DNA of 64,000 nt from Occallatibacter gabretensis (lineage in GTDB: Bacteria; Acidobacteriota; Terriglobia; Terriglobales; Acidobacteriaceae), in contig NZ_LAIJ01000009.1 of NCBI RefSeq assembly GCF_001449115.1, forward strand, positions 992,001-1,056,000. The letters are read 5' to 3'. Position 1 is the stretch's first letter. Every line of letters begins with the position of its first letter. Made by a program: the position numbers and the translations under genes. Positions 23,744 to 58,155 of the stretch are shown in pieces. The notes beneath the pieces were generated by a model. That model had not been told where the DNA came from, did no database searches, and saw only the letters and a program-made list of their open reading frames with translations.

Positions 23744-24268
23744 ATGAGCAAACTTTCCATTGAGGTCAACGCGGACGACCACATACAAGGAAATTCCACG
23801 GCGGAGTGCAGCCTGGTGGAATATGGCGATTATGAATGTCCGCATTGCGGCACGGCCTATCCAATCGTCAAGAGAGTACAAAAGCACTTTGGAAAACGGC
23901 TCTCATTTGTCTTCCGCAATTTTCCCCTGACGCAGATCCATCCGTGGGCAGAACCGGCTGCTGAAGTGGCCGAATTTGCCGGAGTTCACGGCAAGTTCTG
24001 GGAAATGCATGATCTGCTCTTTGAGAATCAGGAAAATTTAGGCGAGACCCTCTTCCTGAATCTGGCTGACAAGCTCGACCTGTCAACTGCCCAGTTACAA
24101 ACTGCAAAAGCAAGCCAGACCTACCGCTCTCGGGTGCGGGCTGATTTTTCTGGAGGCGCACGCAGTGGCGTCAACGGAACTCCGACTTTCTTCATCAACG
24201 GTCGGCGTCACAACGGACCCTTCGATTTCGATTCCTTGAGTGAGGCTATCGAACTGGCCCTTCGCTAA
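23744..24268 (+). CDS. DsbA-like thiol oxidoreductase, apparently cytosolic
   Basis: 174 residues. It carries the DsbA-type active site CPHC (Cys32-Cys35, in EYGDYECPHCGTA), the helical insertion, and the cis-Pro loop GVNGTPTFFINGRRH. Unlike secreted DsbA it has no signal peptide (MSKLSIEVNADDHIQG). Such proteins (FrnE/YyaL-like group) act on cytosolic thiols or detoxification. Ribosome-binding site AGGAGACGTC. Coupled to the peroxiredoxin gene, it could be the reductant or a repair partner of that enzyme, which is an inference from position. Confidence 0.88.
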   Translation: MSKLSIEVNADDHIQGNSTAECSLVEYGDYECPHCGTAYPIVKRVQKHFGKRLSFVFRNFPLTQIHPWAEPAAEVAEFAGVHGKFWEMHDLLFENQENLGETLFLNLADKLDLSTAQLQTAKASQTYRSRVRADFSGGARSGVNGTPTFFINGRRHNGPFDFDSLSEAIELALR

Positions 24269-24489
24269 ATCGGTAGCGGCGCATACGTTGACGCACCTTG
24301 CACTTCAAAGCCTTGTAAATCTCGGTGCTCACCGGCTGGGCAATTGTCTGACTTTCTTGCATCTGCAAGCGTGTCTTGCGCTATGGCATGGTTGAGCTGC
24401 GAGCCCCTGACAGCCTCCAATCTTCAATTGTTTCTGTGAATGTTGCACCTTACTTTGTATCGATCCCTCATCCCACTGCTTCTCACCAC

Positions 24490-24684
24490 ATTACTTTGGT
24501 CCAACTCCCTTTCGTACCGTCCTTCGTGTTCAGAAAGTTTGCGTGCAATTAAGGGGTTTTCTGTCACACTCATAATCAGCAGTAGAAAAGCCACGGCCCG
24601 AACCTTAAAAGGTTCGGGCCGTGGCCGTTTTGGGGAGGGGACGGGGCCCCTCCCCCATCCCCTCTGCACTAGAATTTGTGCAAA
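24490..24684 (-). repeat. ~195-bp structured repeat, copy A
   Basis: Within the 677-base gap between the DsbA-like and cupin genes. It is nearly identical to the inverted copy at 30866-31062. Reading the minus strand: GTGCAGAGGGGATGGGGG, a GGGGAGGGG/CCCCTCCCC stem, a 14-bp stem (CCACGGCCCGAACC/GGTTCGGGCCGTGG), a T-rich stretch, then ATGAGTGTGACAGAAAACC and a short open frame (MSVTENPLIARKLSEHEGR, then YERELDQSN, about 49 residues). Differences between copies fall in the hairpin loops. The rest of the gap (24690-24945) is A+T-rich and contains nothing I recognise. Confidence 0.85.
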
Positions 24685-24945
24685 TTGGTCTTTTACCTAA
24701 ATTCGAGCTGTTGGTCTCCAGCTCAGTGGAAAGCCGTAAAACGTCAGCAAAAGTGTCATTAAGGCGCTATTTAGACCCCATTAAGACACTCAGTTTCTAG
24801 GGCTGAATTTAACCGTAAGTTGATCATTGTAAATGAGTTGTAAAATAAATAACCAGAGAAAATCACCCAAAATCAACTTTTCTATTAACTCATAAGTAAA
24901 CATTGCACGAAAACAAGTGCAAAAATAAGGCAACCAGTACATTTA

Positions 24946-25341
24946 CTATCCCGAGTACTGCTCGTCGCTGACCTTCTCCAGCCACTCGACCGCCTGGCCG
25001 TTCAGCCGCTCCTGAATGGCAATATGCGTCATGGCCGTCTCGGGCGAAGCTCCGTGCCAGTGCTTTTCGCCGGGCGCAAACCAGACCACATCGCCAGGAT
25101 GGATTTCTTCAACTGGCCCGTCCCAGCGCTGCGCCCGACCGCGCCCGCTGGTCACAATCAGAGTCTGACCCAGCGGATGCGTATGCCACGCCGTCCGCGC
25201 ACCGGGTTCGAAAGTCACATGCGCACCGACAACGCGGGAAGGCTCCGGTGCGGAAAAAAGAGGATCCACCCGCACCGTGCCCGTGAAATATTCCTCCGGC
25301 CCTTTGCCCGAAGGCTTGGAGCCGGCTCGTTGAATCTCCAT
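24946..25341 (-). CDS. Cupin, (R)-hydroxynitrile lyase-like
   Basis: 131 residues, single cupin barrel. The metal-ligand pattern falls at His53, His55 and Gln59 (WHTHPLGQT) and His94 (EKHWHGASP). These are the positions of the manganese ligands described for the cupin hydroxynitrile lyase of Granulicella tundricola, and overall similarity as recalled is very high. That enzyme cleaves or forms mandelonitrile in vitro; its natural role is unsettled. The gene starts 19 nt after the stop of a zinc alcohol dehydrogenase gene, so they are probably one operon. Alternative: a general cupin detoxification enzyme. Confidence 0.85.
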
Positions 25342-25360
25342 GAACCAACTTCTTTCCGGC

Positions 25361-26419
25361 TTACTCGGACTTAAGCGAAGCCATATCGATCGAGAAGCGG
25401 TACTTCACGTCAGATTTGATCAGCCGCTCGTAAGCTTCGTTGATCTTCTGAATCGGAATCACTTCCACATCGGACGTAATGTTGTGCTCGCCGCAGAAGT
25501 CCAGCATCTCCTGCGTCTCCTTGATCCCGCCGATCATGGAGCCGGAAAGGCTCTTGCGGCCCAGAATGAGGTTGAAGGAGGAAATCGCCATCGGCTTTTC
25601 CGGCGCGCCAACCAGAACCATGTGCGAGTCGCGGCCCAGCAGCGGAAGATAAGCGTTGATGTCATGGTCGGCAGAGACAGCGTCGAGAATGAAGTCAAAG
25701 CTGAAAGCATGCTTCGCCATCTCCTTCGCGTCTTTCGAAATTACGACCTCGTCAGCGCCCAGCCGCTTGGCGTCTTCCACCTTGTTGGGCGAGGTCGTAA
25801 AGACCACCGTATGCGCGCCCAGCGCATGCGCAAACTTCACGCCCATGTGGCCCAATCCACCAAGGCCCACAATGCCCACCTTCTGGCCCTTGGTCACGCC
25901 CCAATGGTGCAGCGGCGAATAGGTGGTAATGCCCGCGCAAAGCAGCGGCGCGGCTCCGGCAGGATCCAGATTCTCAGGAACGCGCAGCACAAAACGCTCG
26001 TCCACAACGACGCTCTCCGAGTAGCCGCCGTAGGTGACGCCGCCCAGATGCTTGTCCGGGAAGTTATAAGTCAGCGTGGGATTAGGACAGAACTGCTCCT
26101 CGCCTGCCTTGCAGGCCGGACAGCTTCCGTCAGAATCCACCAGGCAGCCCACGGCGGCGATATCGCCGGCCTTGAACTTGGTCACAGCGGAGCCGACCTT
26201 GGTGACGCGGCCGAGAATCTCATGCCCCGGAATGCACGGATAAACGGTGGGCATGACGCCGCTCCACTCATTGCGCACCTGGTGGAGATCGGAGTGGCAG
26301 ACGCCGCAGAAGAGAATTTCAATCGCGACGTCAGTATCGGTAGGATCGCGCCGTTCAATAGTTGTGAAAGCAAGCGGCGATGTGGCGCTGGCGGCAGAGT
26401 AAGCCTTGGCTTTGGACAA
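25361..26419 (-). CDS. Zinc-dependent NAD(P) alcohol dehydrogenase, YahK/CAD type
   Basis: 352 residues, medium-chain dehydrogenase. The catalytic zinc site is [10 protein letters not shown] plus GHE, and the nucleotide-binding motif is GLGGLGHMG. The structural zinc loop reads [18 protein letters not shown]: the position of the first of the usual four cysteines (as in YahK, VDSC) is Asp here. Aldehyde reductases of this group reduce aromatic and aliphatic aldehydes with NADPH. The TTG at 26419 is chosen as start because GAGGTG lies 8 nt upstream; a longer frame to 26572 is basic and non-homologous. Upstream of the cupin lyase gene in a likely operon. Confidence 0.88.
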
Positions 26420-26568
26420 GAATTCACCTCGTTTAGAGAAAGGATGCAGAAGTCCGACGGAAGTATTCGTACAACCCGAAGAAATTCTAACGCGAGACCG
26501 CACTCTAACTGCACGACCGAGGCGCAAAGCCTGCATTGACCGCAACGTTGATCGGGGAAGCAGCTGAT

Positions 26569-27987
26569 TCAAAAGAGATCCGGCACCGAGTGAAATGCAA
26601 TGCGAGTAGGCGCAGCTTTGTATGCCGTCAGCATCGTTGCGGGAGCCAGTGTCTGCATCCCGTATTTGCGATTGAGTGCGTCCATGGCCTCATACAACCT
26701 CGCTCGCTTCTCGGAGCCGTCCATCGAGTCAAAGAGGCTCAAGCTGTGCAGCTTGTCAGGAACAAGGCCGCCAAGATGGACACCCACAAAATATGGATAC
26801 GCGTTTTGCTCGCCACCCGGCTGTTGCTGCCATAGCTTCCGCAGCGCGGTAATGAGCGTCTGGTTGTCCTGGCATTCGGTGAGTTTGATTTCGCTATGCC
26901 ATCCACGCCGTGGCACGCCGTAACTGCTCACGGAATTCGGAATCTCCTGCTGCGCACGCGGAACAGCAAAGCCTACGGCGAGGCCTATGCTGGCAGCCCA
27001 CAGGTCGGCTTCACGCAGGCGCAGCGCGGCTTTGTGCAGTAGCTTCAACGCCACGGCCCACGCCCTTTCCGGCGTGCGCATCTCCGGCGCCAGCACATGC
27101 TGGTGGCCAATAGACTTGGCGTGCTCGTTGTCCGATAGATCGAAATCCTGGCCGCGCAACCAGTGCCAGAGCCGTTCGCCCCAGACCGAGCCCCATAGTT
27201 GGCCCATCTGTTCGCAGTTGAGCGCCAGCAGCTGCTGCATGGTGTGGATGCCCCTTGCGTTCAGCCGTTTTTCCGTCCGCGTGCCGATGCCGGGCAGGTC
27301 GCGCAGTGCAAGCAGGGGGAGTGCCGTGGGTAGGACATCGACTGGTAGAGCAACAAGGCCATCCGGCTTTTCCATGTTGCTAGCGATCTTGGCGAGGAAG
27401 CGGTTCGGCGCAAGACCCACCGAACTGCGAAGCATATCGCCAACCTGTTCGCGAATGGTGCGCTTTACCTTTCGCGCTAGCTCCATCGCGGTCAGGAGTG
27501 GCCGCTCGCGGCCAATGAGCCGGCAGGCCATCTCGTCAATGGAAGCGACTGCGGTGACTGGCACGCAGCTCTCAACGGCCTCCACTACTTCGCGGTGGAT
27601 TTGGGTGTAGAGTTCGTGGCGACCTTCAACGAGGATGAGATCCGGGCACAGCCTTTTCGCGTCCCCCACAATGGTGCCGGTCTTAACGCCATAAGCTTTT
27701 GCTTCATAGCTGGCGGCAATGCAGCAGGTGGTGTCGGCCATCATAGGTACCACAGCGACGGGACGATTTCGCAGTTCCGGTCGTTTTTGCTGCTCGCAGG
27801 ATGCGAAGTAGGAGTTCAGATCGACGAAGAGCCAGTTCACGGCCGGTGCAGAATCTTCCGCTGTGCGCTGCGGCTCTTTTTCCCTTAGCGCGGAAGAGGA
27901 GACATGTGCATGGCTCCGCCACTCGTCGATCTGCTCGTCGGTCAGTTCGGCAATCGCGCCGTCATCCGGAATGGACCTTTGCAACAT
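26569..27987 (-). CDS. Y-family DNA polymerase (DinB/UmuC-like)
   Basis: 472 residues. The palm motif VDLNSYFASCEQQ carries the first catalytic Asp, and SIDEMACRL carries the second Asp/Glu pair. A helix-hairpin-helix region (LRDLPGIGTRTEKRLNARGI) and a little-finger domain follow. These enzymes copy damaged DNA with low fidelity. There are about 50 extra residues before the polymerase domain. It is similar to the 'Y-family polymerase, UmuC-like' group rather than classical short DinB. No UmuD, LexA or SOS-box palindrome was recognised nearby, and no clear ribosome-binding site precedes ATG 27987. Confidence 0.88.
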   Translation of the reverse strand: MLQRSIPDDGAIAELTDEQIDEWRSHAHVSSSALREKEPQRTAEDSAPAVNWLFVDLNSYFASCEQQKRPELRNRPVAVVPMMADTTCCIAASYEAKAYGVKTGTIVGDAKRLCPDLILVEGRHELYTQIHREVVEAVESCVPVTAVASIDEMACRLIGRERPLLTAMELARKVKRTIREQVGDMLRSSVGLAPNRFLAKIASNMEKPDGLVALPVDVLPTALPLLALRDLPGIGTRTEKRLNARGIHTMQQLLALNCEQMGQLWGSVWGERLWHWLRGQDFDLSDNEHAKSIGHQHVLAPEMRTPERAWAVALKLLHKAALRLREADLWAASIGLAVGFAVPRAQQEIPNSVSSYGVPRRGWHSEIKLTECQDNQTLITALRKLWQQQPGGEQNAYPYFVGVHLGGLVPDKLHSLSLFDSMDGSEKRARLYEAMDALNRKYGMQTLAPATMLTAYKAAPTRIAFHSVPDLF

Positions 27988-28196
27988 GGCGGAAGGCTTT
28001 ATAGGCCGCGAAATTAGTTTCGCTTTTTATTTGCTTTTATGCAATGGAAATGCTCTTCTTTCATGGCCCGAAATAACTATTGACGACCTAAAATTTTCCG
28101 ATGATACACTGAGGGCGTCTGAGGTATCTCTCTCAACCTGCCCGAAAGAGATGAAATCTGTCAGAAGACAGCCTCTGATTGAGTGAAGTGTTCGCG

Positions 28197-28352
28197 ATGA
28201 CGCAAAGCTGGCTGCATTGGATTCTTGTTAGCGGAAGTCTCGTCGCGCTGGTCGTAACGATTGGCGTGGCTATTCTGCTTGTTTGCTGCTTGAGCTGTGC
28301 CCGCTGCCCTTTAAAGGAAAAAGACGAGCTCTTCAAACGCCGCGAAGTCTAG
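28197..28352 (+). CDS. Small single-pass membrane protein (51 residues)
   Basis: An uninterrupted frame: MTQSWLHWILVSG, a long hydrophobic helix, a cysteine cluster at the membrane exit (CC..C..C) and a charged end KEKDELFKRREV. Topology and composition look like a real small membrane protein. The ribosome-binding site is weak (GAGTGAAGTG) and no family is recognised. It lies between two minus-strand genes. Confidence 0.45.
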   Translation: MTQSWLHWILVSGSLVALVVTIGVAILLVCCLSCARCPLKEKDELFKRREV

Positions 28353-28393
28353 TCGCGGTGAATTCATTACTCAGCCATAAGATTCGCGAAAGC

Positions 28394-30643
28394 TCATCGA
28401 GATTCTTTTAGCCCTGTGTCCGGCTTCAAATACTGCTCAAAATGCGCAAGAATCTGGCGGTAGAGCTGCACGCGTGCCTCACTTCCCGCAAGATCATGCT
28501 TCTTGCGCGGAAAAATCTGCAAGTCATAGGGAATGCCCGCATTGACCAGCTTGTCTATAAATTGCACGGTGTTGCCGATATGAACATTGTCGTCGCTTAC
28601 ACCGTGAACTAACAGCAGAGGACCTTTCAGGCTCGCCGCGGTGTTCACCACCGATGAATCCTTGTATGCCTGCGGCTCATCGGCTGGTTGACCCAGATAC
28701 CGCTCCGTATAAGTCGAGTCGTAAACGCGCCAGTCGGTAACAGGAGCGACAGCGACACCGGCTATGAATCGATCCGAGTGAGTCATTGCGTAGAGTGTAA
28801 AGTGCCCTCCCCAGCTCCAGCCCCACCATCCGAGCCGCTTTGGATCGAGTTGCGGAAATTTCTCAAGCGCGGCATCGAGAGCTGCAATTTGATCTTCAAG
28901 CTGCACCTTGCCAAAGTCGCGATATGCTGCCAGCGCAAAGTCGCGCCCGCGTCCCGCCATGCCGCGATTGTCTGTACGTAATACCGCGAAGCCGTGCTGT
29001 GCGAGCAACTCGTCGAAGAGTAGATTGTTGCCCCAAAAATCGTCGCCCCAGCGATTCATTACTGTCTGTGCGGTCGGGCCGCCATAAGGATTCACAATGA
29101 GCGGAACGCTTTTCACACCATGAGAACTTTCGGGCAGCATCAGTGTGGAATACAGCGTCGTTCCGTTCTTCGTCTTTGTCTCAAGCTGCAAGCGTGGTTG
29201 CAGCTGATAAGCCTGCATCGAGCGCGAGGCCCATAGCTCCTGACATTCGCTGCCTGTTTTGCAGATGCTGAGCTTCGGCGGATCAAGATGCGTCGAGAAG
29301 GTATCAACAAATGCCGATTCATCCGATGCAGGGACAGACGGGAAGTTTCCTTCGTGCGTTCCTGCTTCGGTGGTCAGCGCCTTGCGCTCCCCTGCAAAGC
29401 TTACCTGCCAGAGCTGCTGTTCTACCGGGCTGGTTTCATTCGATGCGTAGTAGATCTTTTGGTGCTGAGAATCGACCGCAGCGATGGAGTGTACGTCCCA
29501 GTTGCCGCTGGTGAGCTGCTTTGGCGCAGCGGCCGGCGCGCTCATCGGATTTCCCGTGTCGTAGCGATAGAGATAGATGTGGTTGTAACCGTCCTTCCAA
29601 CAGGTGAGCACAATGGCTCCGCCGCTCACCGAGACGCCGTAGTTATCATCTAGGAACTTATCGTCGGTCACTTCAAGTATCTGCAGAGAATCGCGGCTGC
29701 CGAATGCGTCGGCAAAGTAGACGGCGCGGCGCTTATGGTCGCGGCTTAGCGTTTCGATCCAGAGTGTCTTTCGATCGACCCATCCAAAACGTGGGATGTA
29801 GTCCTGCCCTTCGTGGATCGGGAGCCTGATCCAGGATGTGTGGCCGCCTGTGGCGCCGATTACGCCGAGGCGAAGTTCGGGATTGGAATCGCCTGGCTGC
29901 GGATACCATTGCTTCTCGGCTTTGGCGTGCGTGAGCGTCCAGTCGACGAGCGGATACTCCGGCACGTTGCCTTCGTTCATCTGCAGATAGGCGATGTGGC
30001 TGGAGTCCGGCGACCAGAAGTAGTTGCTCTTTACTTCGAGTTCCTCACCGTAGAGCCAGTCCACCTCTGCATTGGTGATGGCGGGGCTCTGCGATGGTGC
30101 GATGGCGACAGGAGTTCCTGTCGCTCCCTCGTCCCGCGGGCGTACGATCCAGAGACCGTGATCGCGGACAAAGGCGATGGTTTCACCGTTTGGAGAAAAG
30201 GTGGGATTGTCTCCGGAACTCGCGGCGGTGAAGCCCATCTCAACCGCTGTGCCAATCTTCAAATCAAAGAGCCAGAGGCGTCCGGCTGAATCAAAGAGCA
30301 GATGCTTGCTGTCCGGTGACCACCAATAGCTGGGTGTCCCGACGCTGCCGCCCTGGTCGTCGCTGCTTGCTTTGAACATCGAAGCAAGCCTGTCATGGCT
30401 TATCAATATAGATCGTCTGCCGGAAGCGATCTCAATGGCGTGCAGCTCGCCGTTTTCGAGCCAGCTCAGGTGCTTGCCGTCCGGCGACCAGGCCACTCCC
30501 GCCGGTGGTGTGCCGATGAGCGGCTCATCCCCATTGATGGCCTCTACTGTCAGAGGCGTTGGCGTGGATTGACCGTTGAGCGCGGGTGCGGCAAGCAGCA
30601 AAGCAGAGAGAGCGAAAGGCGCAAGGCGAAAGTGACGAGGCAA
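28394..30643 (-). CDS. Dipeptidyl peptidase IV-like S9 serine peptidase, secreted
   Basis: 749 residues. A signal peptide (LAPFALSALLLAAPALNGQ) is followed by an N-terminal beta-propeller (DPP IV N domain) and a C-terminal alpha/beta hydrolase. The nucleophile is Ser610 in GWSWGG (usually GWSYGG), the acid is in VHGVSDDNVH (~684) and the base is His716 in FPRKKHD. The family removes Xaa-Pro dipeptides from peptide N-termini in the periplasm. The start is TTG 30643, with GAGGGT 6 nt upstream. It is monocistronic and probably serves peptide scavenging. Confidence 0.92.
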   Translation of the reverse strand: MPRHFRLAPFALSALLLAAPALNGQSTPTPLTVEAINGDEPLIGTPPAGVAWSPDGKHLSWLENGELHAIEIASGRRSILISHDRLASMFKASSDDQGGSVGTPSYWWSPDSKHLLFDSAGRLWLFDLKIGTAVEMGFTAASSGDNPTFSPNGETIAFVRDHGLWIVRPRDEGATGTPVAIAPSQSPAITNAEVDWLYGEELEVKSNYFWSPDSSHIAYLQMNEGNVPEYPLVDWTLTHAKAEKQWYPQPGDSNPELRLGVIGATGGHTSWIRLPIHEGQDYIPRFGWVDRKTLWIETLSRDHKRRAVYFADAFGSRDSLQILEVTDDKFLDDNYGVSVSGGAIVLTCWKDGYNHIYLYRYDTGNPMSAPAAAPKQLTSGNWDVHSIAAVDSQHQKIYYASNETSPVEQQLWQVSFAGERKALTTEAGTHEGNFPSVPASDESAFVDTFSTHLDPPKLSICKTGSECQELWASRSMQAYQLQPRLQLETKTKNGTTLYSTLMLPESSHGVKSVPLIVNPYGGPTAQTVMNRWGDDFWGNNLLFDELLAQHGFAVLRTDNRGMAGRGRDFALAAYRDFGKVQLEDQIAALDAALEKFPQLDPKRLGWWGWSWGGHFTLYAMTHSDRFIAGVAVAPVTDWRVYDSTYTERYLGQPADEPQAYKDSSVVNTAASLKGPLLLVHGVSDDNVHIGNTVQFIDKLVNAGIPYDLQIFPRKKHDLAGSEARVQLYRQILAHFEQYLKPDTGLKESR

Positions 30644-30865
30644 ATAATTACCCTCACGGAGCGATGACAGCGCATTGCCAGTCTATCTGGAGGCAGTGTT
30701 CGATTCCGGACAATTGCGGGAGTCATCCTGTGCAGGGTTGATTTTGAAGTGATGTTTTTTGTGTTGGTTATGGCGGTTTCCACACTCCTTATAGAAATCT
30801 TTATGCGATCTTCATTTCAGAACTGTGCAATCGCACAGTTCTGTTTGCAGGGTATCGAAATCGTT

Positions 30866-31062
30866 TTTGCACAAATTTTGGTGCAGAGGGGATGGGGGAG
30901 GGGGGGTGCCCCCTCCCCAAAACGGCCACGGCCCGAACCTGTTTTTGGGTTCGGGCCGTGGCTTTTCTTCTGCTGATTATGAGTGTGACAGAAAACCCCT
31001 TAATTGCATGCAAACTTTCTGAGCATGAAGGACGGTACGAAAGGGAGTTGGACTAAAGTAAC
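30866..31062 (+). repeat. ~195-bp structured repeat, copy B
   Basis: Located in the 628-base gap before the Ig-like secreted protein, inverted relative to copy A (24490-24684). The same three stems are present (GCAC/GTGC near the start, the G-rich stem, the 14-bp CCACGGCCCGAACC stem), with different loop sequences. The short frame after the hairpin starts identically (MSVTENPLIA) but ends at a stop after YERELD. The rest of the gap (30644-30865 and 31063-31271) holds only presumed promoters. Confidence 0.85.
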
Positions 31063-31271
31063 GTTGCTTAAAAAATCGCGCGCGAGCATAGTTCTTGCGT
31101 AAGAGAAATCGCCTGCATAGGCGATCTTTGAATTCCGATCGTGGGCCCCTTAAAAATTCATCTGACACGCAATCAGATTCACGTCTGACTTTGTGTCAGA
31201 TTTGCTTGCTCTCTCATGTACTTGCTTCCCGATTCTCCGGGCTTTTGACTTCAATTGCCAAGGGGCTATGC

Positions 31272-32720
31272 ATGAGAAGGAAATTTAGGGGTTCCTATAT
31301 TTGGTCGCAGGTTGCAGTGCTATTTGCCGCTGTGGCGCTAGCATTGACCGTGCGAGACGCCTTCGGGATGGAGCAGGCAAACCAGCAAGTTTCACCGCAA
31401 ATTCTTGCGGCCTATCACCATGCGTTTTACCTGTATGATCATGCGGGCGAAATCGCTCAGGCTCATGCCAAAGCTGTCTATCCTTCGTCTGATTCCTTGA
31501 GGCGCGATTTGGGCTTAACCAGCTCAGAATTTGCTGTCTTTGGGAAGGCGGCTTCGGATTTCCGGCAGGTGGAGTATGCGACTCAGGCACAAATTGAATC
31601 CGTTGAGCGGGCGGACCTTGCAACTCATCCAGATGCAAGAAGCCTTACCCCTGCGGCCAAAGCCCGGATTCACTCGCTATTCCTTGCAATGAGACGTCGC
31701 GAGTCGGAGACGATCAATGCCATTCATTCGGGTCTGGATATAAACACCGCAGTTACTTTGGATGCCTCAGTGGTTTCACTCTACGCCGAGGTGCAAGCAC
31801 AGACTACTCTTCAGCTCTCATCTACATCGCTCCTTAGCCGGCCGAGCAGTCTTAGTTCGAGTCGGGTCCAGCCGGAATATAGCGAGCCGCCAAACTGCGT
31901 GGATCTCACCCCCGCAGAAGAAGAGGCCGAAGATGATGAGTGTGTTGACGGCGATGGGGTTTATGACCTTGAAGACTGCACCTGCAACCCCACCGGTGGT
32001 GGCGGCGGCGGAGGACCTACGGGAGGGATAGATCCAGAGCCGCTCGTCACGGTTACCAGCGCGTCCGCCCAATATGGGCAAGCCTTTGATGATCCCATCA
32101 CCGCGAGAGTGGCATCTCAGGCAGGCTCAGGAACTGATGCTCCAACACCCACAGGTAGTGTCGATTTTTCGATGAGCAATACCAACTCTGATCCGGGAAC
32201 ACCCCCGTATCAGAGTGGTAGCGGTGATCTGAACAGCGAAGGAGTAGCAACATGGAATCTGGCAGCAGTAATAGCCACAGGCAACTACAGCACTACCGGT
32301 GAGTATCTAGGAGACGATTATTACGACTCCGCGAAGAACTCCAGTACCGCATCGATCCAAAAGGCAGAATCTATAACAACAATGACCGGGTGTCCGTCCG
32401 GTGCGGTAACTTCTGGACAATCTTTGTCCTTTGAAATCAGCGTGACCTGGGCTAAAGACCCAACGGCTGCACTTGGCACTGCTGGTGTTGCCACGCCAAG
32501 TGGGAACGTTAGCCTTGCTTACTCAGGGAGTTCGAACCCAATTGCCAAGTCACTCACTCCATTGCCAGGCGTGCCTTCTACCGCGACCGTTGCAGTCACA
32601 ATTACAGGCACAGGATCTCAAACCCTAATACCAAGCTATGGGAGCGACAACAACTATGAGGCCTCTACTGGCGCGAGCTCTGCGGGTTCTAATGGTGAAT
32701 GCGACATAACGGTGAACTGA
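31272..32720 (+). CDS. Secreted Ig-like repeat protein with acidic Cys-rich linker
   Basis: 482 residues. ATG 31272 has AAGGGG upstream; an open frame 59 codons longer is rejected. The signal peptide ends near RDAFG. Residues ~40-200 are helical with no family recognised. A linker at ~208-240 is very acidic with cysteines (EEEAEDDECVDGDGVYDLED) and resembles thrombospondin type-3/Ca-binding motifs, followed by a Gly run. The C-terminal ~220 residues contain two Ig-like (Big_3_5-type) domains (VTVTSASAQYGQAF, SITTMTGCPSGAVTSG). Probably cell-surface or extracellular; role unknown. Confidence 0.75.
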   Translation: MRRKFRGSYIWSQVAVLFAAVALALTVRDAFGMEQANQQVSPQILAAYHHAFYLYDHAGEIAQAHAKAVYPSSDSLRRDLGLTSSEFAVFGKAASDFRQVEYATQAQIESVERADLATHPDARSLTPAAKARIHSLFLAMRRRESETINAIHSGLDINTAVTLDASVVSLYAEVQAQTTLQLSSTSLLSRPSSLSSSRVQPEYSEPPNCVDLTPAEEEAEDDECVDGDGVYDLEDCTCNPTGGGGGGGPTGGIDPEPLVTVTSASAQYGQAFDDPITARVASQAGSGTDAPTPTGSVDFSMSNTNSDPGTPPYQSGSGDLNSEGVATWNLAAVIATGNYSTTGEYLGDDYYDSAKNSSTASIQKAESITTMTGCPSGAVTSGQSLSFEISVTWAKDPTAALGTAGVATPSGNVSLAYSGSSNPIAKSLTPLPGVPSTATVAVTITGTGSQTLIPSYGSDNNYEASTGASSAGSNGECDITVN

Positions 32721-41410: not shown

Positions 41411-44089
41411 ATGGAGTGGATTCGTGTTCTGCTGAATAGTTTTGTGTCACTGTTTCGAGGTAAGGAACTGGATGCGCGGCTGGATGAAGAGTTGGGTGCG
41501 CATGTGGATCTTGCCGTTGCGGAGAATGTGCGACATGGAATGACGGAAGGAGACGCACGTACGGCGGCGCTGCGAGCATTTGGCGGCGTGACGCAGACGC
41601 GGGAGAGGTATCGTGTGCAGCGCGGGCTGCCGTGGATTACCACCGCTGCGCAGGATGTTCGCTTCGGCATGCGCATGATGGCGAAGAACCCAGGGTTTAC
41701 CGCGATTGCCGTGCTGACGCTGGCGCTGGGGATTGGCGGCAACACGGCTATCTTTTCCATTGTGAACGGCGTGCTGCTCAATCCGTTACCGTTTCCGCAC
41801 GCTGAGCAACTTGTGGAGCTAAACGAGAGCAAGCCCGACTTTCCTCGAGGCTCCATTCCGTATCCAAATTTTCTGGATTGGCAGCGAGAGAATCACAGCT
41901 TCTCTTCGATTGCCATTACCCGCGGTTACGTGTTCAGCCTGACAGGCCGAGGAGATGCCGAACAGGTGCAATCCGAATTCATCTCGACGGATTTCTTTTC
42001 TGTACTTGGCTTGCATCCGCTGATAGGGCGCACGTTTACTGCGGCCGAAGAACAGTCCGGCGCTGCGCCCGTCGCTTTGATCAGCGAGGGACTTTGGAAG
42101 CGGAAATTCGATGGTGCAAATAATGTGCTGGGACAGGCCATCACGCTGGATGGCCACAACTACACCATCGTTGGCGTCATCCCCTCCGGCTTTCATCTGA
42201 GCTTTGCCAACTTCACAGAGCGGGATGTCTATGTTCCAATTCGCCAGTGGATCAATCCCTACCTGATGCGGCGCTCGGCGGGGTTGGCGATCCATGGGAT
42301 TGCACGACTCAAGCCAGGCGTGACTCTGCAACAGGCCAGTGCCGACATGGATGAAGTCACGCGCAATCTGGCTGTGGCGTATCCCGATGCAAACCAGGGC
42401 ACTGGAGCAAGCATTATTCCACTGAAGGAAGAGATGGTGGGCGATGTGCGGCCCTTTCTGCTGGTGCTGATGGGGGCGGTGGGATTTGTGCTGTTGATTG
42501 CGTGCGTGAATGTGGCAAGCCTGCTGCTGGCGCGCTCTGCCGCGCGTGGCCGCGAGTTTGCTGTTTGTGCGGCGCTGGGCGCAAGCCGCGCACGCGTCAT
42601 TCGCCAGTTGCTTACAGAAAGCCTGTTGCTGGGGATCCTTGCGGGAGACATCAGCCTGGTTCCAGCAGTGTGGGGAACTCATGCAGCGCTGCGATGGTTG
42701 CCAGCCGTGCTGCCCCGCGCGGAAGAGGTTGGCCTCGATTTCCGTGTACTCGCATTTACTATGACGATTTCGTTGCTCACCAGCACACTCTTTGGGCTTG
42801 CTCCGGCGTTGCGCACCTCACAGGCGAATCCGCAAATGGCGCTGAAAGAGGGCGGGCGCGGATCAAACGGACCGCGGCAGCGGACGCTGGGAACATTTGT
42901 AGTGGTGGAGATGGCCATTGCGTTGGTGCTGCTAACGGGCGCGGGGCTGATGATCCGGAGCCTGGTTGAGCTTTGGAATGTCGATCCGGGTTTCAATCCA
43001 CATAATGTACTCACCTTCGGCATGTCGCTTCCGACCTCGATGGCTGACGCATCCCCGGACAAGATACGCGCTACATTCCGTGCGCTCGATGAAAGCCTTG
43101 CCTCCACGCCGGGAATCAAGGCGGTTTCGCCGGTATGGGGCGCGCTTCCGATGGCCGGTGACGATCAACGGCTGTTTTGGCTCGATGGCCAGCCCAAGCC
43201 TGCGAGCGATCATGACATGGACTGGGCAATTGATTACATTGAGCAGCCGGATTATCTGCGTGTGATGCAGATTCCGCTCAAGCGCGGACGCTTCTTTAGC
43301 AGGCAGGACTATGAGCATTCTCCGCTGGTTGCCGTAGTGGATGATGTTTTCGCGAACAAATATTTTTCGGGCCAGGATGTGATTGGCAAGCGCATCCGTA
43401 TGAGCGATAGCGGAAGCGTGGTTGAGATTGTCGGTCTTGTTCCGCATGTGAATCAGTGGGGACTGGATACGGACGACACGCAATCCCTGCGCGCTGAACT
43501 TTACCTGCCGTGCATGCAGATGCCGGAAAATTTTCTTAACGTTATGCGTACCGGCTCCGGCATGGTGGTGCGTTATGAGGGCAGCCTGGAAGCGGTGTCT
43601 GCTGCGCTGCTGCGCACGAGCCGGCAGATCAGCTTGGAGCAGGTGATCGCCGGCTATCAGACGATGGACAGCGTTCTATCCGATTCACTGGCTTCGCGGC
43701 GGTTCGCGATGATTCTGCTGGGAACGTTTGCGGCGCTGGCCGTGATGCTGGCCTCGATCGGTATCTATGGTGTTATGGCATACCTGGTTGCGCAGCGCAC
43801 GCAGGAGATGGGCATCCGGATGGCGCTTGGCGCAAAACGCTCGGACGTGCTGCTGCTGATCTTCCGTCATTGCGCGCGGCTTACTCTGCTTGGTGTTGCG
43901 ATTGGTGTTATGAGCGCGATTGGCCTGACACGACTCATGACCTCACTGCTCTTTCATGTCAGTCCCGGCGATCCCGGTATTCTTGCCGGCGTGGCGGTTC
44001 TGTTGACACTGGTTGCTATGGCTGCCTGCATTCTTCCGGCTCGCCGCGCCGCATCCATTGAACCTATGCAGGCCCTGAGAACGGAATAG
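41411..44089 (+). CDS. ADOP-type MacB/FtsX permease 1
   Basis: 892 residues. It has the acidobacterial duplicated orphan permease architecture. An N-terminal prefix domain ([40 protein letters not shown]) precedes the MacB periplasmic core domain and two four-helix FtsX units (~280-420 and ~750-890). Each unit begins with a conserved TM pattern ([23 protein letters not shown]). No ATPase gene is encoded in the window, so any energising partner must be elsewhere; known members lack one too. Ends 9 nt before permease 2. Confidence 0.92.
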
Positions 44090-44098
44090 GAGATTCCC

Positions 44099-46762
44099 AT
44101 GGATAGGATTCGTATTTTGCTCAGCCGCTGCGCGGCGCTATTCCGCAAGAAGAAGCTGGACGCTCGTCTGGATGAGGAGCTGAACGCGCATGTGGATCTT
44201 GCGGTTGCGGAGAATGTGCGGCGTGGTATGACGGCGGATGAGGCGCGCACGGCGGCGCTACGGGCATTTGGCGGCGTGACGCAGACGCGGGAGAACTATC
44301 GCGTGCAGCGCGGGCTGCCCTGGCTCGAACAGATTGCGCGCGATCTGCGCTATGGCTGCCGCACACTGTATCGCACGCCGGGATTCACAACGACTGCGAT
44401 CCTGGTGATGGCGCTTGGCATTGGCGCTAATGTAGCCATCTTCTCCATTGTGCGCACCGTTCTGCTGAATCCGCTTCCGTACCGCGATCCGCAGCAACTG
44501 GTGGCTCTTTACAGTCATAATTCCGATGCCGGGAAGGGGCATCAGTTTGCGCCTATTGATGCGGGCAGCTTCTTTGAGTGGAAACAGGCTGCACAAGGCA
44601 CGGCGGAGATGGCGCTGATTTCGCCTTTCCAGAACTACAACGTGTCGGCTGAAGGCAACCAGCTTCCGGAAAAAGTGGATGCGGCTTGGGTCAGTGCAAA
44701 TTTCTTCTCCACGCTTGGTGTTCAGCCTACGCTGGGTCGCAGCTTTTCCAGCTTTGATGACCGGCCCGAGGCCGGCGCCACTGCGATTCTTTCGCACTCA
44801 TTCTGGAAGCGGCGTTATGGCGCCGACCCGAACGTGGTTGGCCGCAATATCTGGCTTGATGCCAGGCCGTACACGATTATCGGCGTGATGCCGGAATCCC
44901 TGGTCTTCCTGGGGCCCTTCTCATCGGGCAAGATCCAGGTTTGGACTCCGGCCAGCCATGAAGCTTCGTCGTTTCTGATGAGCACCTTTGAGGATCACGA
45001 ATTCATTGCCGTGGCGCGGCTTGCCCAGGGCGTTACGCTGCCTCAACTGCTTGGCCGGCTCGATCCCATACAGGCACAGATCAAGGCGCAGCATCCACAG
45101 ACCTCCGTACGCAGTGTTACCAGCGGCAGATCCCTGCTGGATGACGCCGTGCAGGACTATAAGACGCCGCTCTATGTTCTGTTTGCCGCTACAGGATGCG
45201 TGTTGCTTATTGCATGCATAAATGTAGCGGGACTCCTGGTAGCGCGCGCGGCGGCACGGCGCAAGGAGCATGCCATTCGCACTGCTCTTGGCGGCAGCCG
45301 CATGCGCCTGGTGCGCGAGCGCGTGATGGAAAGTATGCTGCTTTCAACGGGCGGCGGCCTGTTGGGCGTGATGCTTGCGGCAGCAGCTCTGCGATGGCTG
45401 GAGCATGTTCGGCCCGATATGCGCCGCGTCGAGGGAATTCATCTGGATTGGACGGCTGTGGCGTTCACTGCTGCCGTTGTGATTCTATGCGCAGTGTTTT
45501 CCGGGCTTATCTCTGCTTTCAGTGTTGATAGCCACAGAATCCTGGCTGCTCTGCAGGATGGATCGCGTACGCAGGCCGGGACGCGAGGCCGCGCCGGTTT
45601 GCGGCAAGGCCTGCTGTTTTTTGAAATCAGCCTGACTGTCGTACTTCTGATTGGCGCTGGACTACTGCTGAAGAGCTACAGGCACCTGCGCGCCACCAAC
45701 CTTGGTGTTCCTGTTCACAACGTACTCATGATGCAGGTTGGACTTCCGGATGAACGATACAAAACGGCTGTGGAACAGGTGAGCTTCAAGGAGCGGCTCA
45801 TCGAGCGGGTGCGTGCGATTCCCGGCGTGGAGTCTGCCGCTCTGGTGAGCACGGCACCGGGACAAGGCTGGGGCGGAGACCGCATCGTTGTTGTGGTCGA
45901 GCATCCTCGGTTGGTCAAAGACGCCGAGATCGACATGATGGTGCGCGGCGCCGATCCGGGATACTTCGCTGCGATGAACATTCCTATCATCAAAGGCCGC
46001 ACATTCGCAGGCGATGAAAAACTTTCTAAAGACCATGTCATTCTTATCGGCCAGCAGGCGGCGAGGATATGTTTTCCGGGTGAAGACCCGATCGGCAAAC
46101 ATCTGAAGATCACACTGACCGGAGATATCTACGAGATCATTGGCGTTGTGGGCGATACACTCTACTCCATCTCAGATCCCGTATTGCCCATGATGTACAT
46201 GCCGATCTTCGGGAACGGATTCTCGGGCGTGACGATCGTTCTGCGGTCTGCGCATGATGTGGATGTGCTGGCGATACCGGTGGAGAAACTTGTGAGTCAA
46301 CTCGATCGCGATCTGCCTGTCTCTGGTGTTATGACGCTCGAAGAGTCCCTGGCTAAGGCTACCCTGGGCTCGCAATTTGATTCCATGCTTGTGCTGGGCT
46401 TTGCGGTTATTGCATTGGTGCTGGCTGCCGTGGGCCACTATGGCGTGCTGGCTTATCTTGTTACGCAGCAAACCAGCGAGATCGGCATACGCATTGCATT
46501 GGGCGCGCAGCGAGGGCAGATTCTACGCAACATTCTATTCGATGGAATTCGTCCAGCGCTGGCGGGAATTGCCGCAGGGCTGCTGGTGAGTGCGGCGGCG
46601 GTGCGTTTGATTGGATCGATGCTGTATGAAACAGAGCCGCTTGATCCAGGAATTTTTGCCGCCGTTGCCGGAGTGTTTTTGCTCGTTGCGGTAGTGGCGT
46701 GTCTTATGCCTGCGTGGCGCGCAGCGCGGCTGGACCCTGTGCAGGCGCTGCGAAGCGAATAA
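44099..46762 (+). CDS. ADOP-type MacB/FtsX permease 2
   Basis: 887 residues, paralogous to the first permease and of the same architecture (prefix [20 protein letters not shown], then ALGIGANVAIFSIVRTVLLNPLP, C-terminal ACLMPAWRAARLDPVQALRSE). Strong sequence similarity at both ends, with a diverged periplasmic core, suggests tandem duplication with divergence of the ligand-facing part. Likely one transcript with PadR and permease 1. Confidence 0.92.
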   Translation: MDRIRILLSRCAALFRKKKLDARLDEELNAHVDLAVAENVRRGMTADEARTAALRAFGGVTQTRENYRVQRGLPWLEQIARDLRYGCRTLYRTPGFTTTAILVMALGIGANVAIFSIVRTVLLNPLPYRDPQQLVALYSHNSDAGKGHQFAPIDAGSFFEWKQAAQGTAEMALISPFQNYNVSAEGNQLPEKVDAAWVSANFFSTLGVQPTLGRSFSSFDDRPEAGATAILSHSFWKRRYGADPNVVGRNIWLDARPYTIIGVMPESLVFLGPFSSGKIQVWTPASHEASSFLMSTFEDHEFIAVARLAQGVTLPQLLGRLDPIQAQIKAQHPQTSVRSVTSGRSLLDDAVQDYKTPLYVLFAATGCVLLIACINVAGLLVARAAARRKEHAIRTALGGSRMRLVRERVMESMLLSTGGGLLGVMLAAAALRWLEHVRPDMRRVEGIHLDWTAVAFTAAVVILCAVFSGLISAFSVDSHRILAALQDGSRTQAGTRGRAGLRQGLLFFEISLTVVLLIGAGLLLKSYRHLRATNLGVPVHNVLMMQVGLPDERYKTAVEQVSFKERLIERVRAIPGVESAALVSTAPGQGWGGDRIVVVVEHPRLVKDAEIDMMVRGADPGYFAAMNIPIIKGRTFAGDEKLSKDHVILIGQQAARICFPGEDPIGKHLKITLTGDIYEIIGVVGDTLYSISDPVLPMMYMPIFGNGFSGVTIVLRSAHDVDVLAIPVEKLVSQLDRDLPVSGVMTLEESLAKATLGSQFDSMLVLGFAVIALVLAAVGHYGVLAYLVTQQTSEIGIRIALGAQRGQILRNILFDGIRPALAGIAAGLLVSAAAVRLIGSMLYETEPLDPGIFAAVAGVFLLVAVVACLMPAWRAARLDPVQALRSE

Positions 46763-46792
46763 GAGAGCAGCTCAGATTTTCTGGAGAACCTG

Positions 46793-49525
46793 ATGGATTG
46801 GATTCGTGTTCTGTTGAGCCGTTTTGTGTCGCTGTTTCGCCGCAAGGAGCTGGATACGCGGCTGGATGAGGAGCTTTGCGCGCATATTGATCTTGCGATT
46901 GCGGAGCATGTGCGGCGCGGGGTCGCGGAAGATGAAGCGCGCACGGCAGCGCTGCGCGAATTTGGCGGCGTGACGCAGACGCGGGAGAGATATCGGATGC
47001 AGCGGGGGGTGCCATGGATGGAACAGATTGTGCGCGATGTGCGCTTTGCCGCGCGGCAGTTGCGGAAGTCGCCGGGGTTTACGTTGACGGCGATTTTGAC
47101 GCTGGCGCTTGGACTGGGCGCGAATACGGCGGTCTTTTCGTTGATCAATGCGCTGCTGCTGAGGCCGCTGCCGGTGCCTCATGCGGATAAGCTGGTGGTG
47201 CTGCGCGCGGACAGCGATGACGACGGAAAATATGGACCGAACTATAGCTCTGCTGCGCCGCTGGCGCGTGCGCTGGAGAAACGGCACGATGTGTTTGATT
47301 CCGTTGCTGCCAATACGGGAATGTCGCGGTTCCAGGTGCGCGGCGCTTCCGGCAGTGTGAATGTTCCGGGATCGATTGTCAGCGGTTAATATTTCCAAGT
47401 AATGGAGACGCAGCCGCTGATGGGCCGCTACCTGACGCCGCAGGATGATCAGCCGGGCGGCGGTCCAGGCGGATATGCGGTTGTCATCGGCGAGGATTTC
47501 TGGCGCACATGGTTCAGCGGCGCGCCAGATGTGCTCGGACGCAAGCTGACGATTGCGAATACACCGTTCACAGTTGTGGGCGTGATGCCGAAGAAATTTA
47601 TCGGTGCTGCTCCAACGTCACGGCCCCAGATTTATGCGCCGATGTGGGCCGAGCCGGTCATCGACGCGCCTTCGAACAGCATTGCCGGTGGAATGCACTC
47701 GTGGTGGCTCACTGTGATTGCGCGGCACAAGCCAGGTGTTTCACTTGAGCAGACGAACGCCGCGCTGAGCGCTATATCCGGCTCGATTGTGGATGAAGTA
47801 GGCGCGGATACGACCGGAGGCGAGTGGGCGGCGGACGCGCGCAAGCATCATCTTCATTTTGTTGCCGAGCCGGGAGCAAAGGGTTACACGTATCTGCGCG
47901 CGATGTTTGTGAAGCCGCTGGTGGCCGTGTTCTGCCTGTGCGGAGCGATGCTGCTGCTGGCCTGCCTGAACCTGGCGAGCCTGCTGATGGCGCGAGCGGC
48001 AGCGCGTGAGCGCGAGCTGGCGACACGGCTGGCAATGGGCGCTACACGTAGGCGGCTTGTTCAGCAGCTTATGGTGGAGAGCCTGCTGATTGCGCTGCTG
48101 GGAACGGCGGCGGGGGTTGGCGCGGCTCCGTTTGTGAGCAGCTTGCTGGCAAGGATGATTCTGCCGCGCTATCCAGGCATGTCACTTGTGCTGGATACGA
48201 CGCTCGATCTGCGTGTGCTGTTTTTTGTGGCGTTGATCGCGATTGTGACGACTGCGCTGATTGGGCTAGTTCCAGCGCTGCGCGCCACGTCGAAGAGTTT
48301 AAATGAGCAGATCAAATCGGGGTCGAATGCAACGATGACGCGGGAGCGTACGCGGCTGCTGCCGCGGGTTCTGATGGGGCTGGAGGTTGCGCTGGCACTG
48401 ATTTTGGTAGTTGGTGCAGGCTTGCTGGCTACGAGCCTTACGCGACTTTATTCCACCGGGCTTGGCTTTGAACCGAAGGGCATTGTCAACATCAACTTTG
48501 AAATGAATAAGCAATCCCTCGACGGCCAGGCGCTTGTTCGTTGGTACCAGCAATTCGGCGATGCGTTGACGCGGCAGCCGGGGGTCGCGAGCGTGAGCTT
48601 TGCCTCAATACCACCCATGAGCGGCGAAACGTGGGACAGCGATCTTCACACCCCATCGAGTAGCGGGGACCGAGACGTCTACATGAACGCCGTCTCGCCC
48701 AATTACTTTTTGACCATGCGCATTCCCATTCTGGCCGGGCGCGACTTTCAGTGGAATGAAACGGCAGCTTCTGGACTGAAAATCATCCTGAGCGAGTCGG
48801 CGGCAAGGACGCTCTTTCCGAATGGCAGCGCGGTGGGGCAGAGAGTGACGGGATGGAAGGGTAGTACCTATGCAGGCGCTACCTATGAAGTGATTGCGGT
48901 TGTGGGCGACATACGCTACCGCTCGATTCAGGAAGATCCGCCCGCAGAGGGCTACGTTGCAATTACACAAAGCGAGGAGCACAAGCCGTCTTATACGGCC
49001 GTGATTCGTTCGGTGGGACCGGCTACGCCGCTGGCTGCGGTAGCGCGGGCGCTGGTTGCGCGGATGGCTCCGGATATTCCAGCGCCGGTGATGACGACCC
49101 TGAATAGCAGGATTGATGGCTCGATAGGCGCGGAGCGGATGATGGCGACGCTGGCGGTTTTCTTTGCGGTGAGCGCGCTGCTGGTGACGGGGATTGGCTT
49201 GTACGGAACGCTCGCGTATGCGACGGCGCGGCGGACGAGCGAGATTGGGATTCGCATTGCACTGGGCGCGCAGCGGCTGCGAGTGGTGGCGATGATCTTT
49301 CGCGAGAATGTGTGGGTGGCGGTTTGTGGATCGGCGCTGGGGCTGGGGATTGCGCTGTTTGCTTCGCGTGTGCTGGCTTCGTTTCTCTACAACACTTCGG
49401 TGCGCGATCCGTGGATATTGCTGGGCTCGGTTGCCGCGCTTACGTTGATTGCCAGTGCGGCCTCAATGATTCCGGCGATTCGAGCGGCGAGTGTGGATCC
49501 CATGAAAGCGCTGCGGGCGGAGTAA
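46793..49525 (+). pseudogene. ADOP-type permease 3, interrupted by an in-frame UAA
   Basis: The frame runs 911 codons but has one in-frame TAA at 47387-47389, in IVSG-stop-YFQVMETQPLMGRY. Related permeases read SG(N/E)YFxVLGxxPLxGR at this point, so a single sense codon (for example GAA to TAA) appears to have changed. Upstream (46793-47386) are the prefix domain and first helix; downstream (47390-49525) the rest is intact to ALRAE. Either a recent pseudogene, a readthrough case, or an assembly error. A restart at ATG 47402 would give 707 residues without the first helix. Confidence 0.8.
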
Positions 49526-57702: not shown

Positions 57703-57884
57703 TTAGACGGCGAGGCTACCACTCCCGGATGGTGGCGTCCAGTGGAATGCAGTGGCTTTGGGATACAGCATCTCAGGATTTGCGCCAGGGCGCGGCCCGG
57801 AGCGGGATGCAGAATTACAGATTTACAGAAACTGTGGCCTGTAGAGGGGGGTGGGGGCACATTTCGCCGAAACTGGTACAGAAA

Positions 57885-57905
57885 TACAGAAGTACAACTT
57901 CTGTA
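57885..57905. promoter_or_regulatory. Unassigned 9-bp inverted repeat
   Basis: TACAGAAGT and ACTTCTGTA separated by ACA, in the 549-base gap between pirin and serB. No adjacent start codon fits; it may bind a regulator or form RNA structure. The region around it is A+T-rich. Confidence 0.4.
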
Positions 57906-57990
57906 CGTAGAGGTAAAAAATTATGACTTTCTCTTTTTGGAAATGATATAACCTGCTTTGATTCATAATGTTATGCCAATTTTTTGCTTG

Positions 57991-58155
57991 AAAAAAGGCC
58001 TTTTTTGACTTCAACATGAGTTGAGTGTGGCACAGATGAGGGTAATTTTGTGCAAACTATCTGGTGCTGACAAACGGTACGAAAGGACAATCGACGAAAG
58101 TAATCTGCGCTTCAGCAGCTCTGGAATCGCTGTAGTCCATCCCAGGCGCAAAAAC
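57991..58155 (+). repeat. Diverged repeat, copy C
   Basis: An A/T stem (AAAAAAGGCCTTTTTT) about 20 nt before GAGTGTGG takes the place of the G/C hairpins of copies A and B. The following ~82 nt align without gaps to copies A and B (GAGTGTG, TGCAAACT, ACGGTACGAAAGG, AAAGTAAT). The short frame reads MSVAQMRVILCKLSG, then KRYERTIDESN, similar to copy A. It overlaps no gene until the serB 3' end. Confidence 0.6.

Follow-up and report, generated by a model that had tools for sequence, protein, structure and literature searches.

The window analyzed here, a stretch of 64,000 nt of Occallatibacter gabretensis (C2:992001-1056000 of the 5.35-Mb, 19-contig genome), contains two inverted copies of a repeat in the neighborhood of genes encoding DsbA, a cupin, an alcohol dehydrogenase, a DinB-type polymerase and DPP IV. 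Copy A (24488-24684, minus strand) and copy B (30866-31064, plus strand) have 91.5% identity over 199 aligned bases, the longest exact common block being 39 bp, and the same two arms were returned by a repeat finder. Copy A has the end of the DsbA gene on one side and that of the cupin gene on the other, and copy B is located between divergent genes, in front of both the DPP IV gene and the next plus-strand gene (31095). With regard to the possible inversion of the cupin-to-DPP IV segment mentioned in the original prediction, the DinB gene adjoins the DPP IV gene in seven of the 11 relatives' loci examined, which do not reach the outer flanking genes. The features of the window are as follows.

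24488-24531, minus strand: 3' block of copy A (A/B alignment, family alignment)
24532-24626, minus strand: predicted terminator hairpin of copy A (24589-24626, 17 bp) with the palindrome-rich block (92.2 bits with the R1 model; folding)
24627-24684, minus strand: G-rich segment and small hairpin of copy A (sequence, A/B alignment)
24743-24795, minus strand: alternative 5' sequence of copy A, GTGTCTTAATG...TTAATGACACTT, replacing the common 5' module (by-eye likeness only)
30697-30865, plus strand: 5' module of copy B (GAGTCATCCTGTGC ... AATCTTTATGCGATCTTCATT ... ACTGTGCA, 30720-30829), extended more weakly in the 5' direction to about 30697, and variable spacer (pattern, alignment A3)
30866-30918, plus strand: small TGCAC/GTGCA hairpin and G-rich segment of copy B (sequence, A/B alignment; pattern in other copies)
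30924-30969, plus strand: predicted terminator hairpin of copy B (18 bp) with the T-tract (folding; covariation in the family)
30970-31020, plus strand: palindrome-rich block of copy B, CTGCTGATTATGAGT...TGCATGCAAACTTTCTG (pattern; 91.7 bits with R1 jointly with the hairpin)
31021-31064, plus strand: 3' block of copy B, GGACGGTACGAAAGG...AGTAACG, with a sharp 3' end (conservation drop after GTAAY)
57991-58107, plus strand: third, degenerate copy with a decayed hairpin and recognizable palindromic and 3' blocks (R1 31.4 bits, E 3.3e-5; BLAST 72% over 61 nt)

The main stem of copy A has 17 bp (−36.8 kcal/mol), and that of copy B (30924-30963) has 18 bp (−37.3 kcal/mol); in both cases none of 200 shuffles is equally stable, and both hairpins have a T-rich tail. 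The two near-identical inverted copies of the original prediction are present where it had placed them; its main stem of 14 bp is too short, and its limits of about 195 bp are too narrow, since the element comprises approximately 0.3-0.4 kb and copy B continues for about 150-170 bp further upstream, to about 30697-30720. The alternative 5' sequence of copy A resembles, by eye only, sequences at loci L004 (= L052) and L006 (= L047) of the same genome and L151, L163, L165 and L167 of a relative, JOPF040; used as a BLAST query, it finds no second place in its own genome. The degenerate third copy is preceded by a repeated module CAGAATTACAGATTTACAGAAACTGTGG with a G-run (57800-57990), and the element at the citrate synthase locus (L210) has a similar module before its core. 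Elsewhere in the window (41411-49525) there are three tandem genes of MacB/FtsX-type permeases, with 266-bp direct repeats at a distance of 2.69 kb; the third gene is broken into two reading frames, 46793-47389 and 47402-49525.

A genome-wide search, suggested as a check of the original prediction, yields at least 67 places with the core of the element (the hairpin with the following block). Of these, 63 were identified with a pattern of the palindromic block (at most three mismatches; no places with the reversed pattern as a control), one was added by BLAST (C3:261950-262127) and two by the covariance model (C2:68866, C12:401197), and the last is the degenerate copy of the window. The core copies are spread over eight contigs and both strands. 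BLAST with copy B gives at least 43 matches in this genome, among the best 40 of 77 candidates, three of which come from the opposite side of hairpins. All copy numbers are minimum values, because only part of the candidates was scored (the best 40 of 77 and the best 40 of 57 in BLAST and the best 53 of 1285 in the model search of this genome, and the best 40 of 113 in G149, a genome from another genus). That one intergenic stretch was recently duplicated by chance, as the high similarity of A and B might suggest, is refuted by the dozens of diverged copies and by the relatives of the element in other species.

The 5'-module pattern is found at 51 places (none in the control), and a module on the same strand precedes 40 of the 64 oriented cores, mostly 140-240 bp from start to start (range 90-464 bp). 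For seven modules the pattern detects no core at a distance of up to 700 bp; for one of them, C12:400840, the model gives a match 357 bp further on. Tandem duplications of the 5' module, with a 99-bp period, are found at four places (G000:C2:890224-890355, C2:896859-896990, C3:204404-204535 and C3:582413-582544).

The order of parts in the element is the following: 5' modules, a variable spacer, a hairpin of 13-18 bp with a T-tract, a palindromic block of about 50 bp and, in most copies, a 3' block. In 64 oriented copies the 5' module starts with GAGTTATCCTGTGC, the hairpin consensus is GGCCCGAAYCC...GGRTTCGGGCC followed by the T-tract, and the next block is CTGCTGATTATGAGT...TAATT...CGCAAACTTTCTG (L080 and L097, two of the 64, were left out of alignment A2, and four spurious matches of 50 out of A3). 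The 3' block ACGGTACGAAAGGACAATGGAC...GTAAY is present in 48 of the 64 copies, and conservation falls abruptly to the background level right after GTAAY, the 5' end being less sharp. Other copies, e.g. L066, L068, L070, L081, L083, L092, L093 and L098, have different 3' ends, and these together with the alternative 5' sequence of copy A make the family a mosaic. The spacer varies in length and sequence; one of its several types is the TGCAC/GTGCA hairpin with the G-rich segment.

The analysis of 63 sequences shows that the stem of the main hairpin is under real constraint. Pairing is retained in 95.4% of cells, and changes on both sides are observed in eight of 13 pairs (47 cells); none of 500 shuffles reaches any of the measures, and a slide by one column destroys pairing. 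The folding constraint suggested by the original prediction is therefore confirmed for this hairpin; the 9-bp stem, said to be kept as well, is retained in the A/B pair and is not constant across the family. In particular, among 30 copies with the G-rich 5' arm the exact 3' arm is present in 17 (in 18 with one mismatch) and missing in 12-13. The small hairpin and the G-rich segment occur together in 22 of the 64 core copies by pattern, of which, by our count, 11 have the matching 9-bp 3' arm and 11 lack it, some of the replacements being able to pair in other ways.

The tail after the hairpin contains, on average, 4.69 T per 9 nt in the 64 O. gabretensis copies, 5.42 in 19 copies of JOPF040 and 4.0 in 12 copies of another congener, G063, compared with a T fraction of 0.215 in the O. 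gabretensis flanking DNA; on the opposite strand the respective values are 3.45, 3.79 and 3.58 (reverse hairpin matches and L182-L186 were left out of these counts). Strong conservation persists downstream of the hairpin. The 5' module, though strongly conserved in sequence, has no consensus fold (−0.01 kcal/mol), and Rfam 15 gives no matches at the gathering score in the window, the eight weak matches below it being at chance level.

Several other candidate features were considered and rejected. One is a coding module: although 44 of 64 copies keep the ATG frame of GATTATGAGT open, two reverse frames are free of stops in even more of them (54 and 50), some copies have internal stops, no common stop codon is seen, and among 33 ungapped copies variability is not highest at the third codon position. 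A hairpin at the 3' end, TTACGAAAG...CTTTCGTAA, is found in few copies, and its right arm switches between TTT and AAA across the family. For a tRNA-like piece, CTCATAATC, ARAGORN finds nothing in 24200-31400. That the element itself supplies the stop codon of the gene before it is not supported (TAG in nine of 20 abutting genes and in 57 of 209 others, Fisher p 0.12).

Genes were called, here and in G149, with a home-made finder based on codon usage, in order to analyze the position of copies relative to them. None of the 64 anchors falls inside a called gene, though in a few copies a called gene runs into the element. Twenty copies are between convergent genes, 33 between tandem genes (23 and 10 in the two orientations) and 11 between divergent genes; the 3'-side gene points towards the element in 43 of 64 cases (p 0.008), and the 5'-side gene is on the same strand in 30. 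Since a same-strand gene is upstream of just 30 copies, and 11 are divergent, the predicted terminator would not always serve the preceding gene. The bias to gene 3' ends is stronger in the 39 copies that have a 5' module and a called gene on either flank (12 convergent, 23 tandem and four divergent, including copy B). Where a same-strand gene precedes the 5' module, the latter starts within 30 bp of its stop codon in 20 of 26 cases, and 18 of 20 such modules with a core are nearer to this stop codon than to the next gene (p 0.0004), with a median distance of 12 bp.

A similar arrangement is observed in G149, where 25 copies were analyzed, five of 30 loci having no recognizable core. A same-strand gene precedes 19 of these copies, and none is between divergent genes; in the 19 cases the stop codon is 118-174 bp before the block, and in 15 of them, by our count, the C-rich start of the element is within five bases of the stop codon. 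In two copies, L232 and L243, the called gene extends into the element and stops there.

The comparison of orthologous loci demonstrates that the element has been inserted. At L094, the junction between a Nudix gene and a gene of 158 aa measures, by our count, about 617 bp with the element in O. gabretensis and about 511 bp with the element in JOPF040, while without it the same junction is about 62 bp in G063 and about 43 bp in G056. In G003 there are about 230 bp between the genes at this position, with no R1 match. With the ends drawn as above, of which the 5' one is less sharp, no terminal inverted repeats were found, and an offset scan for target duplications in 33 copies gave at best three copies with a common 4-mer. 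Two genes of Y1 (RAYT-like) transposases were found in the genome (G000:C2:32190-32492 and C2:887437-887715), each at most 2.6 kb from a copy of the element; the 3.3-kb loci of these two genes, the Y1 family being the only one searched, contain no copy of the element beyond short chance-like matches. In viral contigs two exact patterns gave no matches, and a third, short and weakly specific, gave 13 stretches; blastn against plasmid and phage collections found no match.

BLAST over 40 relatives gave only two short weak matches, and the exact block pattern in GTDB genomes other than the O. gabretensis one was found on 10 contigs of a single MAG, Acidobacteriaceae bacterium JOPF040 (G020), which says little about absence elsewhere, as copies in G063 and G149 are missed by this pattern. 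The covariance model R1, built from the hairpin and the following block, was run on 80 genomes of the genus including that of O. gabretensis (with stricter filters in searches over more than 40 genomes), and gave at least 53 matches in this genome, 21 in JOPF040 (two of these being second, reverse-side matches to hairpins in the same set) and 12 in G063. One or two weak matches each were obtained in G047, G004, G053 and G074, and none at E 0.01 in the remaining 73. Among 200 genomes of the order, R1 gave six matches in G149, which belongs to the same family and to a different genus. The best of them has E 2.2e-5 per genome; being nearly identical, the six count as one independent hit. A search of G149 with its own sequence gave at least 45 matches, among the best 40 of 113 candidates. 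A covariance model, also proposed in the original prediction, thus finds the element in its own genome, in congeners and in another genus, and the outcome by which that prediction was to fall, only two copies and none in relatives, is clearly at variance with these data.

The copies in JOPF040, G063 and G149 have in common the hairpin, the T-tract and the CTGATTTRAGTGTRGC-like start of the block, the remainder being species-specific, so that related families with different sequences, or dialects, are present in at least four species of two genera. In the 25 aligned copies of G149 (L232-L261) the block is followed by a near-invariant segment TTTATTTGCTTTGGAATG...GGGGCTTGACA; GGGCTTGACA with TTTCCACAGG is also found behind one O. 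gabretensis copy (L231) and behind a weak match in G047 (L186). In 13 of 19 JOPF040 copies (L151, L153-L161, L163, L164 and L169, all by eye) a REP-like hairpin ATCCCA...TGGGGCACCCG or its variants, with differing stem sequences, directly follows the element.

Mean identity is 0.66, 0.67 and 0.62 within species and 0.52-0.58 between species (L163b and L168b, which are reverse hairpin matches, and L169, L178 and L182-L186 were left out). Four pairs of copies occupy orthologous positions in the same orientation in O. gabretensis and JOPF040 or G063: L094-L167, L056-L171, L041-L159 and L058-L164, the last matched by the upstream gene only. A rough estimate, taking about 4000 gene ends and copy numbers of 66 and about 31, gives about 0.5 shared positions by chance. 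The identity in these pairs is 0.485-0.563, and 78%, 19%, 51% and 54% of random cross-species pairs, respectively, are closer; even the best pair, L056-L171, is exceeded by 19% of random pairs, with random means of 0.52-0.53. As orthologous copies are no closer than random ones, either copies are homogenized within species or the same spots have been struck twice.

A multi-copy mosaic element that has been inserted between genes, has a covarying stem with a T-rich tail, is biased to gene 3' ends and differs in sequence between species is best explained as a modular, non-autonomous interspersed repeat bearing an intrinsic terminator, and this is what copies A and B probably are. In this repeat, a constant core, consisting of a GC-rich stem of 13-18 bp, a short loop, a T-rich tail and about 50 bp of palindrome-rich DNA, is joined to exchangeable 5' modules and, in most O. 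gabretensis copies, to a fixed 3' block. Copies are inserted between genes, preferentially behind gene 3' ends and often within about 30 bp of the stop codon, where the hairpin is expected to terminate transcripts of the preceding gene and, to a lesser degree, those of the opposite gene; termination would also be the reason why the hairpin is kept. If so, insertion behind a gene would be tolerated or useful, and copies preceding a gene or interrupting an operon would tend to be lost. The palindromic block and the ends of the element may be recognized by a putative protein that moves or homogenizes copies, which would explain the single dialect per species, even at orthologous positions.

Stem conservation could also reflect handling at the DNA level instead of termination. 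The repeat would then be purely parasitic, with the hairpin needed by a mobilizing enzyme acting on single-stranded DNA, gene 3' ends being the least harmful sites, and termination being incidental. This is a possible explanation, though clearly a less probable one. The same argument has been published for BOX, RUP and SPRITE of Streptococcus pneumoniae (in the portion of PMC3049150 available); it agrees with the mosaic make-up, with copies that have no 5' module or have other 3' ends, with the 5' modules coreless by pattern (at least one of the seven has a core by model) and with the degenerate copy at 57991, and covariation suits DNA hairpins as well as RNA ones. However, a DNA hairpin does not need the T-rich tail that is conserved beside the stem in three species, many copies begin almost exactly at stop codons in two genera, and neither of the two Y1 genes found is linked to the element.

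More tentatively, the terminator-bearing repeat may be part of a system common to the family Acidobacteriaceae that installs ready-made transcript ends behind genes. A putative recombinase or transposase would read the palindromic block, place elements at stop codons and keep one dialect per species, so that sites common by descent would carry species-specific sequences. We consider this extension rather doubtful.

It is improbable that the repeat is transcribed into a family of small structured RNAs that end at the hairpin, although a hairpin with a T-tract is a normal 3' end of such RNAs and the 5' module is strongly conserved. Against the structured RNA of the original prediction are the lack of a conserved fold in this module and that of an Rfam match at the gathering score. 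Moreover, promoter-like sites of the sigma-70 type in 24200-31300 do not exceed those in shuffles (two compared with 3.2 expected), conservation goes on past the predicted terminator, and the spacer between the 5' module and the hairpin is variable. Even less probable is that the palindromes (e.g. GCAGATT...AATCTGC and CTGATTATGAGT) are binding sites of a regulatory or DNA-organizing protein and that the terminator just happens to lie beside them: palindromic, species-specific blocks do adjoin the hairpin, and copies are found on eight contigs and both strands, but no regular spacing or strand order is seen by eye, there is no candidate protein, and the same position can be empty in relatives.

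If the hairpins of the preferred, terminator-bearing repeat do terminate transcription, dozens of unrelated genes in each genome have their 3' ends reshaped by one repeat family, and this in a phylum that has received little study. Of particular interest are the placement at stop codons in two genera and the different dialects at common positions; positional orthologues with non-orthologous sequences allow the question of gene conversion, re-insertion or co-evolution with a binding protein to be addressed directly. Our literature search for repeats of Acidobacteria and for terminator-bearing repeats found no title or abstract describing this element; repeat counts for Granulicella aggregans are given in the accessible part of PMC12306157.

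In comparison with known systems, the best reading is a non-autonomous, terminator-bearing interspersed repeat with species-specific dialects, neither a new RNA nor a simple MITE. The REP/MITE-like nature suggested by the original prediction holds in kind, as this is a dispersed repeat. Like MITEs, the element is small and multi-copy, shows no sign of coding and was evidently inserted, judging by the empty site; unlike them, it has no detected terminal inverted repeats or target duplications with the ends as drawn, and no parent transposase was identified in the search of the Y1 family. Intergenic palindromes in mosaics, the two Y1 genes in the genome and the REP-like hairpins beside 13 of 19 JOPF040 copies (by eye) resemble REP/BIME/REPIN systems with RAYT. 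However, REPs have 20-40 bp, according to the accessible text of PMC3733652, the present element being approximately ten times longer, and the two Y1 genes, the only ones found, are not flanked by it.

The closest parallels come from pneumococcus, as far as described in the available part of PMC3049150. BOX (boxA-boxB-boxC) is likewise modular, with a variable number of modules, lone modules, about 100 copies, an excess between convergent genes and restriction to a clade; in the present element exchangeable modules in variable number are seen as 5' modules at 40 of 64 cores, tandem 5' modules and several spacer types. BOX differs in having terminal inverted repeats and target duplications, which we did not find here, and in not being built round a terminator. 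SPRITE is an interspersed repeat found near the 3' ends of genes, its main feature being an 18-bp stem with a U-rich tract behind it; that text reports no clear target duplication or partner IS for SPRITE. The present element has the same long stem with a T/U-rich tract, has no target duplication that we could find, and is likewise near gene 3' ends and rare between divergent genes, more weakly so over all 64 O. gabretensis copies with the crude gene calls. SPRITE, however, is short (typically less than 200 bp), AT-rich and consists of one unit, whereas the present element has 0.3-0.4 kb, a GC-rich stem and several exchangeable modules, and, unlike SPRITE, forms related families of differing sequence in at least four species of two genera. 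Likened by description and not by sequence, the present family may thus be regarded as resembling, in kind, SPRITE and BOX combined.
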